From the NCBI RefSeq assembly GCF_032999765.1, contig NZ_CP136051.1, forward strand, positions 4,316,417 through 4,380,416: a stretch of 64,000 nucleotides of DNA. Reading direction: 5' to 3'. Both the position numbers and the translations under genes were made by a program. Positions 19,690 through 26,371 of the stretch are shown piece by piece; positions within the stretch are counted from its first letter, which is position 1; the number at the start of each line of letters is the position of its first letter. Source of the DNA: Imperialibacter roseus (GTDB lineage Bacteria; Bacteroidota; Bacteroidia; Cytophagales; Cyclobacteriaceae). Below the pieces are notes generated by a model. It did no database searches. It was not told the origin of the DNA and saw nothing but the letters and a program-made list of their open reading frames with translations.

Positions 19690-21630
19690 CTACACTGCCA
19701 GCGGACTCGCAATAAGTGATTCGGCTATTTTGGTAGCCTTAAGCACGAGAAATTTCACAAAGTCATCGAGGTATTCGGCATCAACCGCTTTGGACTGCTC
19801 AAGCCAGGGATTCATGACGACCGAACGTAAGATGAAAAGCCCTTCACGCAAATACTCTTCTTTCGTAAAACCATAGCTGATCAGAATATCGCCGACTGAC
19901 TCCCAGGAATACTGCTCACACCTGATTTGAGTTCTCGAAACAAAAAAAGCATGATCGTAAGGCATGAGGTGGCGCTTGTCCTCCGTTCTCAACGAGAAGG
20001 TTTCGTAAACTCCTCTATTTATGGTATTATTTTCCTTTAATGATGCCCCATTCAGCAGCACCAAATAGCAGACAACGTTTGTGTCGGGTTGGGTCAACGT
20101 TCGTATCGTTAACCTGGTGTTCTTAAACTGAGCTTCGTTAATTAACTGGTAGAGTCGCTGGGCTCCTGCCAATGACTGCCTGATGATTTTTCCATGGCCG
20201 TGTCGGTGAAGCGGGATCGTTCTGTGCGTTAACCAGGTCGCCAGGGCGGCGGCTCCCGGCTTGGATCCTTCAATGATATAGGGACCAATGGCTTCATCCA
20301 ATACCCTGGTATCGAAAAAATTGGCGCTTGTCTGGTCGAGGATATAAGGCGCCTTTTGCCTTGCATAAAGTACGCTCCGCTTATCTTTAAAATTGATTAC
20401 ACCAGAGGGGTACGGGATGTATCCCAGCTTATGAGGATCGATTGTGACCGAATCTGCCAAATGAATAAATTCTATATCCTCGTTTTCAAACGCCTCTTTC
20501 CCAGCACCATCTGATTGCTCAGGGGCGTCTATGTAAAGGGTTCGCAAGTAGCCTCCCCAGGCTGCATCGGCATGAAGCCAAAACGATTTACATTTCTCCT
20601 TTTCGTACTTTTTCCTTGTCTTTTCGATATCCACCAGGGGATCGACTGCTCCTTCCTCAGTTGTGCCCATAATGCCTACCACGGCCACAATTGTTTGTGA
20701 AGCACTCATGCCCAGTATGGCCTCTTCAAGTTTTGGAATCGAAAGTCTGAAATTGTTGTCGACAGGCATAGGAATCACCTGGTCGTCGCCAAAGCCGAGC
20801 AGGTTGGCAATTTTCCGGATACTGTAGTGAGCAGCTTCCGAAACCAGAATAACTGGTTCCACCCCGACATCCCGGTAAAGCCCCACCCCTTTTTTACCAA
20901 CGTTGTACCTGCTGGATTGAAAAGAATCCTCCAACCATTGATGAGCGTCGTCTGACTTACACTGTGCTGCCAGTCGTTCCGGGATATTCAGCCGTTCATC
21001 GAGTGTGAGGTTGAGCAGTGTAGCAACAGGCACTTCCCTGATGTCCTTCGAGTCTCCATTGGGTAACCCCACCTGGAATGCGATAGATTCCTCCCGGCAA
21101 AGTTCAGCCACCATCACGGGAATCCACTGCGTTTGCCGGGCCAACCAAAGCGCCTCCATATTGGCAATGGTGCCGCCAGAAGTAATATGAGACCAGCTTT
21201 TGTCTGTATCGTAGCCCAGCATGCCTGCAATCATTTTGCCGGCTTCTATTTCCAGTTTTACTGTTACCGGGGCTGCCTCATCTGACACATTGTTGGGATT
21301 GTACAACATACCAGCAAAATAGCCCATGATCCCTGGCATACTTGTTTCCGATATCATATGCGCCAGGTAGCGGGGAGAGTAAAAGGGATAGTCAGCTTTT
21401 AGCTGATTGAGGACAAAGTCGAGCTCGTTGCTCAATTTATCAAACCAAACGTCGTGCGAGCGTCGCTGCGCCCGGCCGAGAATAAGCGGGTCTTCCGGAA
21501 AATAATTCTTTCTCCAGTGGGCATAGTCCTGAAAAATGTAGTTGATAACTTCCTGCCATACCCCCGCCTGCTCTGACTTTGGCCCCAGAAACCAGGCACC
21601 CATTGGTAGCTCTTCTTCTCCCTTCCACAT
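19690..21630 (-). CDS. group II pyridoxal-phosphate decarboxylase
   Basis: 646 aa, PLP-dependent amino acid decarboxylase (glutamate/tyrosine/aromatic type). Seen: THITSGGTIANMEALWLARQ-like PLP phosphate site (HITSGGTIANMEAL), SEAAHYSIRK with the cofactor-stacking His, HADAAWGGY with the PLP-nitrogen Asp, and TIDPHKLGYIPY with the PLP-lysine. It is longer than GadB (466) because of an N-terminal extension of about 100 residues. The substrate cannot be told. It starts divergently from the flavin-barrel gene; the shared 184-base region holds the Rrf2-type palindrome and a TGACT-TT-AGTCA inverted repeat (21688-21699). Confidence 0.9.
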   Translation of the reverse strand: MWKGEEELPMGAWFLGPKSEQAGVWQEVINYIFQDYAHWRKNYFPEDPLILGRAQRRSHDVWFDKLSNELDFVLNQLKADYPFYSPRYLAHMISETSMPGIMGYFAGMLYNPNNVSDEAAPVTVKLEIEAGKMIAGMLGYDTDKSWSHITSGGTIANMEALWLARQTQWIPVMVAELCREESIAFQVGLPNGDSKDIREVPVATLLNLTLDERLNIPERLAAQCKSDDAHQWLEDSFQSSRYNVGKKGVGLYRDVGVEPVILVSEAAHYSIRKIANLLGFGDDQVIPMPVDNNFRLSIPKLEEAILGMSASQTIVAVVGIMGTTEEGAVDPLVDIEKTRKKYEKEKCKSFWLHADAAWGGYLRTLYIDAPEQSDGAGKEAFENEDIEFIHLADSVTIDPHKLGYIPYPSGVINFKDKRSVLYARQKAPYILDQTSANFFDTRVLDEAIGPYIIEGSKPGAAALATWLTHRTIPLHRHGHGKIIRQSLAGAQRLYQLINEAQFKNTRLTIRTLTQPDTNVVCYLVLLNGASLKENNTINRGVYETFSLRTEDKRHLMPYDHAFFVSRTQIRCEQYSWESVGDILISYGFTKEEYLREGLFILRSVVMNPWLEQSKAVDAEYLDDFVKFLVLKATKIAESLIASPLAV

Positions 21631-21739: not shown

Positions 21740-21765
21740 AATAAAAGACTTTTTAATCTTTTATT
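21740..21765. promoter_or_regulatory. operator palindrome, copy 1 (before the flavin-barrel gene)
   Basis: A 26-bp palindromic sequence with outer arms ATAAAAGA / TCTTTTAT around CTTTTTAA. All 26 bases recur at 24354-24379 before nrdJ. It ends four bases before a -7 box and covers the -33 region, so a bound protein would block or contact RNA polymerase. The likely ligand is the Rrf2 regulator encoded at 23700. Confidence 0.85.
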
Positions 21766-21769
21766 GTTT

Positions 21770-21777
21770 TACATTTG
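21770..21777 (+). promoter_or_regulatory. -7 element of the flavin-barrel gene
   Basis: TACATTTG fits TAnnTTTG; it lies 38 bases before the ATG at 21815. The -33 position falls inside the palindrome and lacks a TTG, which suits a promoter that depends on or is controlled by a regulator. Confidence 0.7.
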
Positions 21778-21814
21778 CCGAACCATTGCTAAATAACTCA
21801 AATACTATCTCCCC

Positions 21815-23647
21815 ATGGACAATTCACCCCAGCACAGTTTTCATATCCCCGTTATGGGATTGGCTTACACCATTGATTCGCCAATAAAAGTGGCCCGGTT
21901 TGGTATATCCTCAGTGATGTCCATCATTGAGGACAATCTGATCGAGAAAATGAGGAGCTATTACTATGGGAAAATAAACGAGCCCTATCTGCCGATTTCC
22001 ACTCATGAAGAAGATTACAGGGCTAAGCGTATCACCGACTACCTCAACCTTGTGAACCGAATTGTGTGCCAGCAGGTAGAAACCCTCCGAAATTCAACTT
22101 TTGAGGCGGGGTCAGAGATTGTCAAGTACTTCGAAATGCTCCCTGACGGCAACAAGGTCAAACAGCTATTTCAGCTCATAAATGAACTACAGGACCGGGA
22201 GGAACAGGAGCAACTCCAGAAGTACTTAAAAAGTCAGATCCAGCCGGGAAGTATCGATGTGAACATAATGACTAAGGTTGACAAAGTGAACACGGATGCC
22301 TTTGGTAAGCCGATAGAAGATGGATCGGATGCCCTTACCGCCCTCAGGGGGTATGTAAATAGTGATCTGGTCAACTCCTCTGTCGTGTTATCGGCGGGTA
22401 TGAACCCCCGCCTGTTCAACTATATGGAAAAGCTGCATCAATTGGCCGCAAAGGGTTGGGGCGATTTTGAAAAGAAAATAGTTATTAAGGTAAGCGACTA
22501 CAGATCGGCCCTGATTCAGGGCAAGTACCTGGCCAAGAAGGGCCTCTGGGTTAGTGAGTTCAGGATAGAGTCGGGGCTTAACTGCGGAGGACATGCTTTT
22601 GCTACTGACGGCCTCCTGCTGGGGCCAATTCTGAACGAGTTCAAAAACAAAAGAGCAGAATTGCGTATCGAACTATTTGAAATATACAACAGAGCACTCC
22701 AGGAAAAAGGCCTCCGCACCTATAATGAAGCTCACCCAATAAAAATCACAGTGCAGGGAGGCATAGGCACTTATGAGGAAGATCAGTTTCTCAGAAGGTT
22801 TATGGGAATGGACAGCACCGGCTGGGGCACACCATTTTTACTTGTACCAGAGGCCACCACCGTAGACGACAAGACGTTGCAGTTGCTGGCTAAAGCAGGG
22901 CAAGATGACCTCAAACTAAGCAAAAACTCCCCTCTCGGTGTGCGCTTTCATTACCTGAAAGGAACCAGTTCGGATGAGGAAAAACTTAATCGAATTAAAA
23001 AAGGTCGGCCCGGCAGTCCCTGCACAGAAAAATACCTCGTTTCCAATACCGAGTTTACCAAAGAGCCAATTTGTACTGCCTCCTACAAATACCAGAAATT
23101 AAAGGTAAAACAGTTGCAGGGGATGGAGCTCCCAGAAGATCAATACCAGCAGCAATTAAGCAATGTGCTCGATAAAGAATGTCTGTGCATCGGATTGAGC
23201 AATTCAGCGGTACACACTTACCAACTCAAGCCATTCAAAAAACTGGAGGCAGTTACTATTTGCCCGGGCCCAAACATTGTCAATTTTTCAGCAACATTGT
23301 CTCTTCAAGCTATGGTCGATCACATTTATGGCAGGGCCAATGTGATCTCCAACCCGCAAAGGCACCATATGTTTATCAGGGAACTACAGCTCTATATCGA
23401 TCACCTGAAAGAATCGATGGAATTCAATAGCGGCGAGGTGGCTAGTAAAAAGGACAAATACCTCAAAACATTCCATGACAACTTGCTGGACGGCATAGCC
23501 TACTACAGGCATATTGTAGTCGACATCGCCCATGGTATCGAAGAGCTGAAATATCGGTTTCTAGACTCGCTTGAAAAAGAAGAACACAAACTTCGGTCGT
23601 TGTACGAAAACTACGTTAGCCATACAAATTCTCTTGAGGCAGTATAA
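21815..23647 (+). CDS. nitronate-monooxygenase-like flavin-barrel protein with extra Cys residues
   Basis: 610 aa, function unknown. Parts match the FMN TIM barrel of nitronate monooxygenases: N-terminal IPVMGLAYTIDSPIKVARFG (like the PIxxxMxxxVStpeLaaAV opening), IVIKVSDYRSALIQGKYLAKKG, NCGGHAFATDG with Gly-Gly-His260 (like EAGGHxG, where the His is near FMN), and VQGGIGTYE (314-320) then GWGTPFLLVPEATT (like the phosphate-binding GGI and the GTxFl..pE end). The order of motifs is right, but there is a 150-residue helical insertion (about 55-200) and a C-terminal domain with Cys403, 420, 456, 458 and 483 that could hold an Fe-S cluster. It is co-directional with the Rrf2 gene 52 bases later and shares its operator with nrdJ. 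Homology to the barrel is my inference from motifs; the reaction is unknown. Confidence 0.7.
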   Translation: MDNSPQHSFHIPVMGLAYTIDSPIKVARFGISSVMSIIEDNLIEKMRSYYYGKINEPYLPISTHEEDYRAKRITDYLNLVNRIVCQQVETLRNSTFEAGSEIVKYFEMLPDGNKVKQLFQLINELQDREEQEQLQKYLKSQIQPGSIDVNIMTKVDKVNTDAFGKPIEDGSDALTALRGYVNSDLVNSSVVLSAGMNPRLFNYMEKLHQLAAKGWGDFEKKIVIKVSDYRSALIQGKYLAKKGLWVSEFRIESGLNCGGHAFATDGLLLGPILNEFKNKRAELRIELFEIYNRALQEKGLRTYNEAHPIKITVQGGIGTYEEDQFLRRFMGMDSTGWGTPFLLVPEATTVDDKTLQLLAKAGQDDLKLSKNSPLGVRFHYLKGTSSDEEKLNRIKKGRPGSPCTEKYLVSNTEFTKEPICTASYKYQKLKVKQLQGMELPEDQYQQQLSNVLDKECLCIGLSNSAVHTYQLKPFKKLEAVTICPGPNIVNFSATLSLQAMVDHIYGRANVISNPQRHHMFIRELQLYIDHLKESMEFNSGEVASKKDKYLKTFHDNLLDGIAYYRHIVVDIAHGIEELKYRFLDSLEKEEHKLRSLYENYVSHTNSLEAV

Positions 23648-23699
23648 AGCACCACATGAGCCCCTTGCAGAAGACTCGGGGGCGACATAACTTACGGAC

Positions 23700-24146
23700 A
23701 TGTTTTCAAAAGCCTGCGAATATGCCGTAAGAGCGGTCATGTACATTGCCATCAAAAGCGCTAAAGGGCTGAAACCGGGCTTCAAAGAAATCGCCAGGGA
23801 AATTGACGCCCCGGATCCGTTTGTTGGTAAAATCTTGCAACAGCTGGTCAGGGAAGGTATCATATCTTCCAATAAAGGCCCGAACGGCGGGTTTTATCTT
23901 CACCCCGAAGGCAAGCCTGTGCCACTGATGGACATTGTGAGGGTAATTGATGGCAAGGAGGTGTTCAGCCTCTGCGTGCTTGGGCTGAAGGACTGCTCGG
24001 ACAAATTCCCATGCCCTATTCATCACGATGTAAAAGCCTTCCGGGATAAATTGAAGGAAAGCATGCAAAACCAGCACGTTCAGGATCTTGTGAAAAAAAT
24101 AGAGCAAGGCAAAGTGTTTCTTAAAAACCATAGCATTAACAGCTAG
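23700..24146 (+). CDS. Rrf2-family Fe-S transcriptional regulator
   Basis: 148 aa, winged-helix dimer. N-terminal MFSKACEYAVRAVMYIA, recognition region FKEIAREIDAPDPFVGKILQQLVREG, and the wing NKGPNGGFYL are typical. The cluster ligands are visible: Cys92-x6-Cys99-x5-Cys105, with His108 three residues later, close to IscR/NsrR spacing, so it should bind an iron-sulfur cluster and sense NO, oxygen or cluster supply. It lies 52 bases after the flavin-barrel gene (one transcript likely) and 375 before nrdJ. The shared palindrome before both is the obvious candidate site, which would make it autoregulated. Confidence 0.9.
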   Translation: MFSKACEYAVRAVMYIAIKSAKGLKPGFKEIAREIDAPDPFVGKILQQLVREGIISSNKGPNGGFYLHPEGKPVPLMDIVRVIDGKEVFSLCVLGLKDCSDKFPCPIHHDVKAFRDKLKESMQNQHVQDLVKKIEQGKVFLKNHSINS

Positions 24147-24353
24147 AGAAGATTTGCGCAGCGGTGCACCTCGAAGCATTTGCAACTATTTTACCCCTCT
24201 CCTGAAACAATCTCTTCTGCTTACAAAGGCGAATCTATTGGAACCAGATGCGCTTTTTGAAAAGAACTGGCTCAAGACCCCAAAGGCTAACTTTTTCAGG
24301 CTCCTACACTCACCTTTCATCTACACGAAATAAGCTCAAGCAAAAGGTAATTT
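24147..24353. other. intergenic region before the nrdJ promoter
   Basis: About 200 bases without a supported gene. I looked for a cobalamin riboswitch here because nrdJ needs B12 and saw no B12-box-like sequence. Nothing else recognised. Confidence 0.5.
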
Positions 24354-24379
24354 AATAAAAGACTTTTTAATCTTTTATT
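24354..24379. promoter_or_regulatory. operator palindrome, copy 2 (before nrdJ)
   Basis: Identical over 26 bases to the one at 21740-21765: arms ATAAAAGA / TCTTTTAT around CTTTTTAA. It ends two bases before the -7 box, at nearly the same place as in copy 1. This conservation in two different promoters means selection, not chance. Confidence 0.85.
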
Positions 24380-24381
24380 AA

Positions 24382-24389
24382 TATATTTG
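24382..24389 (+). promoter_or_regulatory. -7 element of nrdJ
   Basis: TATATTTG fits TAnnTTTG; transcription would start near 24396. It lies 33 bases before a TTG at 24422 and 132 before the ATG at 24521, the two possible starts of nrdJ. Confidence 0.7.
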
Positions 24390-24520
24390 TTGAGCAGACG
24401 AAATCCTCAGAGGCTAGTCAGTTGGAAGGCCTTTGTGCATTTCAGAATGACGCTGCAACTCAGCCTTTGCAGGTATGGGCGGCAGTTGACCAATATTATC
24501 TACCCAGAACAAAGAAAGGC

Positions 24521-26371
24521 ATGGAACTAAACCAGGAAATTCTTAGTGACATTATCGTACACATGAAGTATGCACGGTACATTCCGGAGCTCAATCGCAG
24601 GGAACTATGGCCGGAAATCTGCGGTCGCTATGAAGAAATGATGGTGGACAAATACCCTCATATGCGAGAGGAGATTCGGGAAAACATGGCGTTTGTACTA
24701 CAAAAAAAAGTACTTCCCTCCATGCGGGCCATGCAGTTTGCCGGTCCTCCTATTATTAAAAACAACAGTCGTATTTACAACTGTGCCTACTTGCCAGTAG
24801 ACGATATCAGGGCGTTTTCTGAGGCCATGTTTCTACTACTGGGCGGAACTGGCGTTGGGTTTTCCGTTCAGTTGCACCACGTCAGTCAATTGCCTGCTGT
24901 TCAAAAGCCCGAGCGGAGAAGAAGATTTTTGGTCGGCGACAGCCTGGAGGGCTGGGCCGATTCCATCAAAATGATTATGAAAGCCTATTTTGGATTTCAC
25001 AGCACTCTGCCTGACTTCGATTACTCGGATATACGGCCCAAGGGAGCGAGGCTGGTGACCGCCGGCGGCAAAGCGCCAGGCCCTGAACCTCTAAGAGTTT
25101 GCCATGCTCATGTCATCTCCGTTCTTGAAAGAAAGCAGAACGGTGAAAAGCTGTCCTCACTGGAGTGCCACGACATCATGTGTCATATTGCCAATGCAGT
25201 GCTTTCGGGTGGCATTCGCAGGTCAGCTATGATATCTCTTTTTTCGCCGCAAGATGATGAAATGCTGAGCTGCAAGTTTGGCAACTGGTGGGAGCTTAAT
25301 GAGCAAAGAGGCCGGGCCAACAACTCCGTGGTGCTCACCAGAGACGGCACTACCAAAGAGTCTTTTATTAAGCTTTGGAAGAAAATAGAGCTGTCGGGCT
25401 CTGGAGAACCTGGTTTCTATTTCACCAATCACCCAGAGTGGGGAACCAACCCTTGCTGCGAAATTGCTTTGCGGCCTTTCCAGTTCTGTAACCTCTGCGA
25501 AATTAACGTTTCGGATGTAGAAACGCAGGAAGACTTGAACGCAAGGGCCAGAGCGGCTGGTTTTCTGGGCACACTTCAGGCCGGATTTACCGATTTCCAT
25601 TACCTGAGGGAAGAATGGATTAAAACAACGGAGGAGGATGCTCTTATCGGCGTAGGAATGACGGGAATAGCCAGTGGGAGAGTTTTCCAAATGGATTTGA
25701 AGGAAGCGGCTGATGAAGTGAAGCATGTCAACATGGAGGTATCGGCGAAAATAGGGATAAACTTTGCTGCCAGGTGCACTACAATAAAACCCTCCGGCAC
25801 CAGTTCACTTGTATTGGGCACCTCTTCTGGCATCCACGCCTGGCACAACGATTTCTACCTGAGAAGGGTAAGAATAGGTAAGAATGAAGCATTGTACCAA
25901 TACTTGAAGGACAACCACCCTGAGCTGCTGGAAGACGACTTACTCAACGAGAAACAGGGCATTATCTGTATCCCCCAGAAGGCACCTAAAGGGAGCATTA
26001 CACGAAGCGAAAGTGCCATGGATTTACTGGAAAGAATAAAAATCTTTAATACTGAGTGGGTGAGGAATGGATATCGTCTTGGCAACAATGCTAACAACGT
26101 ATCGGCAACAGTGTCCATCAAAAAAGACGAATGGGAAAAAGTCGGACAATGGATGTGGGAGAACAAAGCATCCTATAATGGTTTGAGTGTGCTGCCGTTT
26201 GACAGTGGAAATTATCAGCAACCTCCATTTGAAGATATTACTGAGGAGAAATTCAATGAACTGGAAATAAGCTTACGCAGCATTGACCTCTCAAAGGTAG
26301 TGGAGGGGGAAGATGAGACCGACCTGCAAGCGGAGGCAGCGTGCGCCGGCGGTGCCTGCGCTATCGTTTAG
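24521..26371 (+). CDS. nrdJ: adenosylcobalamin-dependent ribonucleotide reductase (class II)
   Basis: Reduces ribonucleotides to deoxyribonucleotides with a cobalamin-made thiyl radical, independent of oxygen. 616 aa from ATG 24521; a TTG at 24422 would add 33 residues. Motifs: NCAYLPVDDIRAFSEAMFLLLGGTGVGFSVQ, SGGIRRSAM, active-site Asn310-x-Cys312-x-Glu314 in NPCCEIALRP, KPSGTSSLVLGTSSG, and C-terminal redox pair Cys608/Cys613 in the tail ACAGGACAIV. It lacks an ATP-cone domain at the N-terminus, so overall activity regulation by dATP is not expected. Its promoter shares the 26-bp palindrome with the flavin-barrel gene. It ends overlapping the convergent phosphoesterase by four bases. Confidence 0.92.
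   Translation: MELNQEILSDIIVHMKYARYIPELNRRELWPEICGRYEEMMVDKYPHMREEIRENMAFVLQKKVLPSMRAMQFAGPPIIKNNSRIYNCAYLPVDDIRAFSEAMFLLLGGTGVGFSVQLHHVSQLPAVQKPERRRRFLVGDSLEGWADSIKMIMKAYFGFHSTLPDFDYSDIRPKGARLVTAGGKAPGPEPLRVCHAHVISVLERKQNGEKLSSLECHDIMCHIANAVLSGGIRRSAMISLFSPQDDEMLSCKFGNWWELNEQRGRANNSVVLTRDGTTKESFIKLWKKIELSGSGEPGFYFTNHPEWGTNPCCEIALRPFQFCNLCEINVSDVETQEDLNARARAAGFLGTLQAGFTDFHYLREEWIKTTEEDALIGVGMTGIASGRVFQMDLKEAADEVKHVNMEVSAKIGINFAARCTTIKPSGTSSLVLGTSSGIHAWHNDFYLRRVRIGKNEALYQYLKDNHPELLEDDLLNEKQGIICIPQKAPKGSITRSESAMDLLERIKIFNTEWVRNGYRLGNNANNVSATVSIKKDEWEKVGQWMWENKASYNGLSVLPFDSGNYQQPPFEDITEEKFNELEISLRSIDLSKVVEGEDETDLQAEAACAGGACAIV

Follow-up and report, generated by a model that had tools for sequence, protein, structure and literature searches.

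Identical palindromes before a predicted flavoprotein gene and a class II ribonucleotide reductase gene as candidate operators of an NsrR-like Rrf2 regulator in Imperialibacter roseus

Introduction

Nitric oxide (NO) poisons class I ribonucleotide reductase (RNR). Imperialibacter roseus is a groundwater bacterium of the phylum Bacteroidota, and the stretch of its genome analysed here, 64,000 nucleotides of contig NZ_CP136051.1 (positions 4,316,417 to 4,380,416; hereafter the window), contains two identical 26-bp palindromes. One precedes the gene of a predicted flavoprotein, here called P610, which is followed by rrf2, a gene for a regulator of the Rrf2 family; the other precedes a gene read as a class II RNR. 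A preliminary description of this DNA had proposed that the Rrf2 protein binds both palindromes, and we examine that proposal by comparative genomics.

Dnr of Pseudomonas aeruginosa is an activator of the Crp/Fnr type. It is likewise an NO-linked regulator of an oxygen-independent class II RNR, since in the available part of the study nrdJ requires Dnr for induction and is induced more strongly in the presence of an NO donor (PMC4860495), whereas the candidate at the present locus is an Rrf2 protein with a site on the promoter. In Sphingopyxis granuli, according to the accessible text, nrdZ is up to 365-fold higher in anaerobic nitrate culture (PMC6472365). Among Rrf2 proteins, C0FN14 of gut Clostridia is, as far as the available portion of a preprint goes, also encoded near RNR genes in some genomes and proposed to be released on cluster oxidation; it differs in its proposed role in oxygen defence (BOOR, rubrerythrin), in concerning both RNR subunits, and in belonging to Clostridia, and that portion describes no operator (PMC13404960, preprint).

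The proposed regulon is NsrR-like in type. With NsrR the window regulator shares the Rrf2 profile, three cysteines in the region of the iron-sulfur (Fe-S) cluster and a palindrome over the promoter, and NsrR sites precede hmp, norB and RIC (dnrN) genes, as sites of the window type do in relatives (PMC1274295, available part). It differs in its operator sequence and in reaching only 28.7 bits against the NCBIfam NsrR model, whose cut-off is 182; distinctive besides the operator are an unnamed flavoprotein and the switch of an RNR. IscR and RirA also have three Cys and a His in the cluster loop, and the site, with ATA/TAT at its outer and GAC/GTC at its inner positions, is reminiscent of the IscR type 1 site, but the window Rrf2 falls below the equivalog cut-offs of both, and no isc or suf operon was recognised beside the sites, although no dedicated search was made. 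In the text of the census of NsrR and HcpR regulons by Rodionov et al. (2005), neither "nrd" nor "ribonucleotide" occurs, and the two passages on Bacteroides concern HcpR2 (PMC1274295); a 2026 preprint on B. thetaiotaomicron is, in its available part, also centred on HcpR and hcp. In literature on Rrf2 or NsrR in Bacteroidota and on RNR together with NsrR, Rrf2 or NO, covered mostly at the level of titles and abstracts and excluding regulon databases, no Rrf2-RNR regulon of this kind was recognised.

Results

The 26-mer AATAAAAGACTTTTTAATCTTTTATT occurs at 21740..21765 (candidate operator 1, upstream of P610-rrf2) and at 24354..24379 (candidate operator 2, upstream of the RNR gene), letter for letter identical and both times on the + strand, exactly as first described. 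These are the only 2 matches in the window at up to 3 mismatches (0.00 expected from 100 shuffles), and the whole genome of 6,747,663 bases contains the same number at this tolerance, while the reversed control yields 0; the possibility raised earlier that the palindrome is a widespread repeat is thus not borne out. Hence, the only perfect sites of the I. roseus genome both lie in the P610-rrf2/RNR cluster. A looser consensus adds one place with 1 mismatch, inside a coding frame, which equals the one match of its reversed control. Each palindrome consists of 9-bp arms, AATAAAAGA and TCTTTTATT, around an asymmetric spacer of 8 nt, a geometry one base longer than initially reported, and the identity between the two copies stops at 26 bp. 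Boxes of the TAnnTTTG (-7) type follow closely, as the preliminary description had it: TACATTTG at 21770..21777 (+) begins 4 nt past the end of operator 1, in the P610-rrf2 promoter, and such a downstream box recurs in relatives; TATATTTG at 24382..24389 (+) begins 2 nt past the end of operator 2, in the RNR promoter. Operator 1 ends 49 bp before the start of P610, and operator 2 about 140 bp before the likely start of the RNR gene.

The gene rrf2 (23700..24146, +) begins 52 nt behind P610, with which it forms a probable operon, and its product belongs to the Rrf2 family by both models that describe it (PF02082, 88.1 bits with a cut-off of 30, 7e-25; TIGR00738, 85.1 bits with a cut-off of 73.3). 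Counting on the translation confirms the reported Cys92, Cys99, Cys105 and His108, spaced C92-x6-C99-x5-C105-x2-H108, so that all positions of a three-Cys-plus-His ligand set are occupied; this CCCH pattern is present in 63 of 64 rows of collected Rrf2 proteins. Two other Rrf2 genes of I. roseus score above the family cut-off, one of which (L113) is far from the window type. In a tree of the 64 rows, built without duplicate loci and without matches of fewer than 110 aligned residues, the window protein falls into a clade of 12 rows from 11 genomes (support 99/97; one genome is still represented twice, by L130 and L143). A site lies within 3.5 kb in all 12 rows of this clade, compared to 40 of the 64 rows together, and a clade of 7 rows (MLSLTC type) has no site within the same distance.

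The association of site and regulator is also seen at P610 itself. This Rrf2 gene directly follows P610 in L004, L005, L006, L008, L016, L020 and L030, as well as in L003 and L079. Among P610 loci outside the genus, all 7 testable loci with this Rrf2 directly downstream have a site (up to 1 mismatch) before P610, versus 7 of the 73 other rows, counts in which relatedness is not corrected; L079 has no P610 upstream to test, and contigs that end near P610 (e.g., L012, L023, and L047) cannot show a following Rrf2. Comparative genomics therefore favours the earlier attribution of both sites to the neighbouring Rrf2 protein, to which their binding is assigned by sequence association.

To judge from alignments with relatives, the palindrome is a conserved promoter element. 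The closest named relative found, Imperialibacter sp. EC-SDR9 (L003), has a P610 that is 90% identical and an Rrf2 that is 100% identical; its P610 site agrees at 24 of 26 positions, both changes lying in the spacer, against 124 of 189 flanking columns (Fisher, 0.006). Its RNR site agrees at 25 of 26 positions but gives no contrast, because its flanks are conserved too, with 304 of 353 columns identical. Across relatives, 73 distinct intergenic sites in 52 loci, picked at 1 mismatch at most to WTWAARGAYNNNNNNRTCYTTWAW, a consensus itself drawn from the sites it selected, have an A/T-rich, variable centre, and the spacers vary between species while the arms stay constant. P610 has 198 related stretches in genome contigs, of which the best 80 were used for counting. 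Within about 300 bp upstream of these genes, a site is found outside the genus in 22 of 80 cases at up to 2 mismatches and in 14 of 80 at up to 1, compared to 1.1% and 0.075% in Markov shuffles (79 of the 80 rows are distinct, and L050 10577 is a spurious short frame). These upstream counts leave out upstreams shorter than 200 nt and L003, which is of the same genus, and one site may serve two divergent genes.

The same element recurs before genes of NO detoxification in relatives, whereas in I. roseus it precedes only P610-rrf2 and the RNR gene. With up to 2 mismatches, it is found before 15 of 20 genes for a NorC-like cytochrome c, 9 of 16 for qNorB and 7 of 24 for RIC, and also before 14 of 28 6-pyruvoyl-tetrahydropterin-synthase-like genes, 4 of 4 aminotransferase genes and 4 of 11 NadA genes; families are named by Pfam, the names NorC, NadA and Nos being our own reading. 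In G047, it lies between an Rrf2 gene and the directly following gene of a flavohaemoglobin (globin, FAD, and NAD domains). None of 80 upstreams of nosZ, nosD, nosF and nosY has a site. This cannot serve as a negative control, because most of these genes are internal to operons and a site does precede the small lipoprotein gene ahead of nosZ (family 15) in 6 of 17 cases; the nos operons are probably not excluded from the regulon. Of 114 site/gene pairs, 43 have a TAnnTTTG box beginning 0 to 12 nt past the site (35 of these at 0 to 6 nt), compared to 0.92 expected and at most 4 in 300 shuffles; the other 71 pairs have no such box within 12 nt. Counted by site, 40 of the 73 have a box on at least one side. 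Two conserved proteins outside Pfam, L130:8443-9552 (family 74) and L004:3764-4978 (family 20), and their kin recur in the neighbourhood of nor, nos and Rrf2 genes, in many cases with a shared promoter region that bears the site.

Operator 2 precedes the gene of an RNR of 616 amino acids (24521..26371, +), read as adenosylcobalamin (AdoCbl)-dependent and RTPR-like. The ATG at 24521 is taken as its start instead of the mechanical TTG at 24422, because the alignable conserved protein begins there. The label of class II given in the preliminary description holds insofar as the RNR barrel PF02867 is above its cut-off (39.5 bits) and the AdoCbl-dependent RTPR model TIGR02505 matches (5.6e-72); the score of 243 bits, however, is below the equivalog cut-off of 340 of that model. 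A housekeeping class I enzyme is encoded elsewhere, by adjacent genes for NrdA and NrdB at C1:6314252-6317439, and the class II enzyme is therefore a second RNR of the genome. Orthologues with at least 76% identity occur in 7 of 146 genomes, including I. roseus, and in three further named loci. Three of these ten have the site directly upstream, namely, I. roseus, Imperialibacter sp. and G033, where the order is RIC, Rrf2, a perfect site and the RNR gene, adjoining nos genes. In L008 and L079, the site heads a qNorB-RNR gene pair, and in L004, a pair of a RIC-like hemerythrin gene and the RNR gene. A different arrangement is seen in G016, G025 and G044 (L189, L187, and L190), where the RNR gene is flanked by a RIC-like gene and a Crp-like gene and has no Rrf2 site, the Crp type being confirmed by Pfam for L189 only; this points to control of the class II RNR by a different regulator in these three genomes. 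No RIC-like or Crp-like neighbour was recognised beside the gene of G065. In a more distant class II RNR subfamily of 35 to 40% identity, none of 9 relatives has the site.

Class III RNR genes show a similar association. Fourteen of the 146 genomes encode nrdD, and a site (up to 2 mismatches, within 450 bp upstream) is found in 6 of these 14 versus 3 of 140 background upstreams, the latter taken from loci without a P610 site after removal of two doubly counted loci from a first set of 166. Ten of the 14 nrdD genes are of one type. Each of these has an Rrf2 gene no more than 10 kb away (in L262, L263 and L265, only one of 34 to 42% identity), and nine also have nor, nos or RIC genes at that distance; no such neighbours were recognised for the other four, one of which is on a contig of only 7.6 kb. 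Judged by gene order, the link of this gene group to an oxygen-independent RNR, of class II or III, is recurrent.

In addition, the class III enzyme appears to be split in all ten nrdD genes of this type (L208 to L214 and L216 to L218, in G039, G053, G085, G047, G078, G040, G027, G043, G045, and G024). The NrdD frame stops after the region CPxHGYLxGEHExCPxC, and the glycyl-radical motif TRVMGYHRPxESFNxGKKGEH follows in a separate frame of 56 to 81 codons between stops just after nrdD. An nrdG-like frame comes next in the 8 loci whose stretch held one, and the nrdD genes of L215 and L219 carry the motif unsplit. To judge from the frames, the radical subunit of this class III RNR may be a separate protein.

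P610 (21815..23647, +), the first gene of the probable operon, encodes a protein with no Pfam or NCBIfam family above cut-off and no significant match in a PDB sequence search; its weak matches below cut-off are HrpJ (E 0.004) and LcrE (E 0.015), and the FabX/PfaD/nitronate monooxygenase (NMO) families give none at E<=0.1 in Pfam or NCBIfam. Its AlphaFold2 model, built from a 51-row alignment, has a pLDDT of 88.3 and a pTM of 0.90. The best Foldseek matches of this model are FabX, PfaD-type enoyl reductases and 2-nitropropane dioxygenase, all FMN TIM barrels (FabX, E 1.9e-9, TM 0.66 by target length), so that the "flavin-barrel gene" of the preliminary description agrees with the predicted fold. 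Residues invariant in the 51 rows are Cys 257, 403, 420, 456, 458 and 483 and a GGH motif, G258-G259-H260. P610 thus resembles FabX, PfaD and 2-nitropropane dioxygenase in its predicted barrel and has this invariant GGH besides, but it lacks a sequence-family match to them, and its invariant Cys are spaced differently from the cluster ligands of FabX, given as C300/C304/C308/C320 in the part of the report available (PMC8626469). The model predicts a TIM-barrel fold of the FabX/PfaD/NMO class, for which FMN binding and an enoyl, nitronate or acyl-ACP activity would be expected. The family is large and conserved, with a mean column identity of 66% (51 rows) and members in 47 of 146 genomes, often next to denitrification genes.

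On the other side of operator 1, a pyridoxal-dependent decarboxylase (19690..21630, -; PF00282, 6.3e-29) is encoded divergently and starts about 110 bp from the operator, of which it is a possible target. On the decarboxylase side of the L003 site, there is no TAnnTTTG box at a distance of 0 to 12 nt.

I. roseus also encodes a second Rrf2 protein of the NO type (L115, G000:C1:2947897), which has 144 amino acids and the CCCH pattern but belongs to another clade than the window protein; its neighbours are a truncated globin (Pfam) and then a RIC gene (BLAST). A different perfect palindrome, AATTCGGATAAAATTATCCGAATT, lies 62 bp before its start and is unique in the genome at 0 to 1 mismatch, with a TATCTTTG box downstream of it, ahead of the Rrf2, truncated globin and RIC genes. 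This locus is probably a second, paralogous and autoregulated circuit of the same genome.

Discussion

The palindromes are probably operators of an NsrR-like Fe-S repressor of the Rrf2 family, encoded between them, which would free the class II RNR gene, P610 and its own gene from repression upon damage by NO or damage to Fe-S clusters. A cluster-bearing Rrf2 dimer would bind the 24- to 26-bp site just upstream of the -7 box and bar RNA polymerase from both promoters, that of P610-rrf2, which would amount to autoregulation, and that of the class II RNR gene. When NO or another Fe-S-damaging agent attacks the cluster, repression would end, and the cell would make P610, a FabX/PfaD-like flavoprotein, together with an RNR that should need neither oxygen nor the radical centre of class I. 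Repression is the simplest reading because a protein bound at the site would cover the place of the polymerase, and NO is preferred as the signal over plain oxygen or iron because in relatives nor, hmp and RIC genes have the site upstream.

Several observations weigh against this reading. The window Rrf2 is not an NsrR or IscR by the NCBIfam models, since its scores for both (44.3 bits for IscR, with a cut-off of 207.55) are far too low, and G024 has P610 and an Rrf2 gene adjacent without a site (up to 2 mismatches) within 300 bp. The site is also missing from 58 of the 80 P610 rows (at the same tolerance) and from four of the ten class II RNR genes (G016, G025, G044, and G065). The consensus behind the 73 sites is circular in its derivation, and no site count across relatives is corrected for relatedness. 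The arms-only pattern with up to 1 mismatch matches 70 of 146 genomes, in many of which the reversed control is as frequent or more so; only the position before genes is therefore informative, and genome-wide counts were not used. Lastly, no homologue of qNorB is encoded by I. roseus itself at E<=1e-40, and its two COX1 proteins are read as oxidases. Without a recognisable NO reductase, NO need not be the signal there, and oxygen or Fe-S status is possible.

The last point leads to a reading that we consider rather doubtful, in which the operators belong to the window Rrf2 but the signal is oxygen, superoxide, iron or general Fe-S status, as with IscR and RirA, instead of NO. A class II RNR fits low oxygen as well, and the C-x6-C-x5-C-x2-H spacing resembles the three Cys and one His of IscR. 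The RirA model (51.3 bits, cut-off 193) and the IscR model outscore that of NsrR, but all three remain far below their cut-offs, and the genes downstream of the sites in relatives speak for NO; no isc or suf operon was recognised beside the sites, where many genes were not identified. A gene read as MIP18/SufT-like accompanies an Rrf2 clade other than that of the window, one without the site. Glu7 of the window Rrf2, a Glu in 12 of 12 clade rows, aligns with Asp8 of NsrR, which is a cluster ligand according to the available part of a preprint (PMC13404960), and this again argues for NsrR. That the paralogue beside the truncated globin binds the window sites instead is improbable. It shares the CCCH pattern and the genome with the window protein, and its wider group has AAAAGA-type sites before its own gene in L134, L124 and L217 and, in L123, right behind the gene and before hmp, which counts against our preferred assignment, as site type is not strictly bound to clade. 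However, its 3.4-kb locus has no window-type site at up to 1 mismatch, its own promoter carries the other palindrome, and TCCGA-type half-sites recur within its 14-row group in L005_5104m, L123, L058 and L218. The operator split is therefore clear in I. roseus but not strict across the family.

The remaining alternatives concern what the sites do. Activation of both promoters by the Rrf2 protein is quite improbable. Rrf2 proteins such as IscR can activate, and a TTG exactly 18 nt before a TAnnTTTG box, the one spacing tested, occurs nowhere in the window, so that a weak -33 element could need an activator; but a palindrome that ends 2 to 4 nt before the -7 box fills the place of the polymerase, and most boxes found in relatives keep the same short distance. 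Control of the RNR gene by NrdR or by a cobalamin riboswitch, with the palindrome incidental, is very unlikely. Both are common for RNRs or B12-dependent enzymes, but the window has no Rfam riboswitch, no match resembling an NrdR box (up to 3 mismatches) lies between rrf2 and the RNR gene, and the orthologue in G033 is preceded by a perfect site. A small mobile repeat or RNA element in place of operators is hardly credible: the spacer is as identical as the arms between the two copies, and an RNA hairpin could form (-8.3 kcal/mol, z -2.75), yet there are only two copies in the genome, their identity ends with the palindrome, Rfam has no match there, the position is upstream of a -7 box, and across species the spacers diverge while the arms stay.

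Returning to the NsrR-like repressor as the preferred reading, its benefit to the cell would lie in DNA synthesis. Finely balanced, in our judgement, is the wider proposal that, under NO or during denitrification, an Rrf2 repressor of Bacteroidota frees an oxygen-independent RNR that escapes the attack of NO on class I, so that DNA synthesis continues; the enzyme would be of class II in Imperialibacter and its kin, ten further genomes of the family would use class III nrdD instead, and P610, released at the same time, may serve another NO-sensitive step. If true, a single protein would couple Fe-S sensing directly to a backup RNR by way of a defined operator. This would also amount to an initial outline of an NO regulon under Rrf2 control in Bacteroidota, would place a conserved flavoprotein family without a Pfam or NCBIfam entry in a functional context, and would bear on how DNA precursors are supplied in denitrifying or NO-exposed bacteria.

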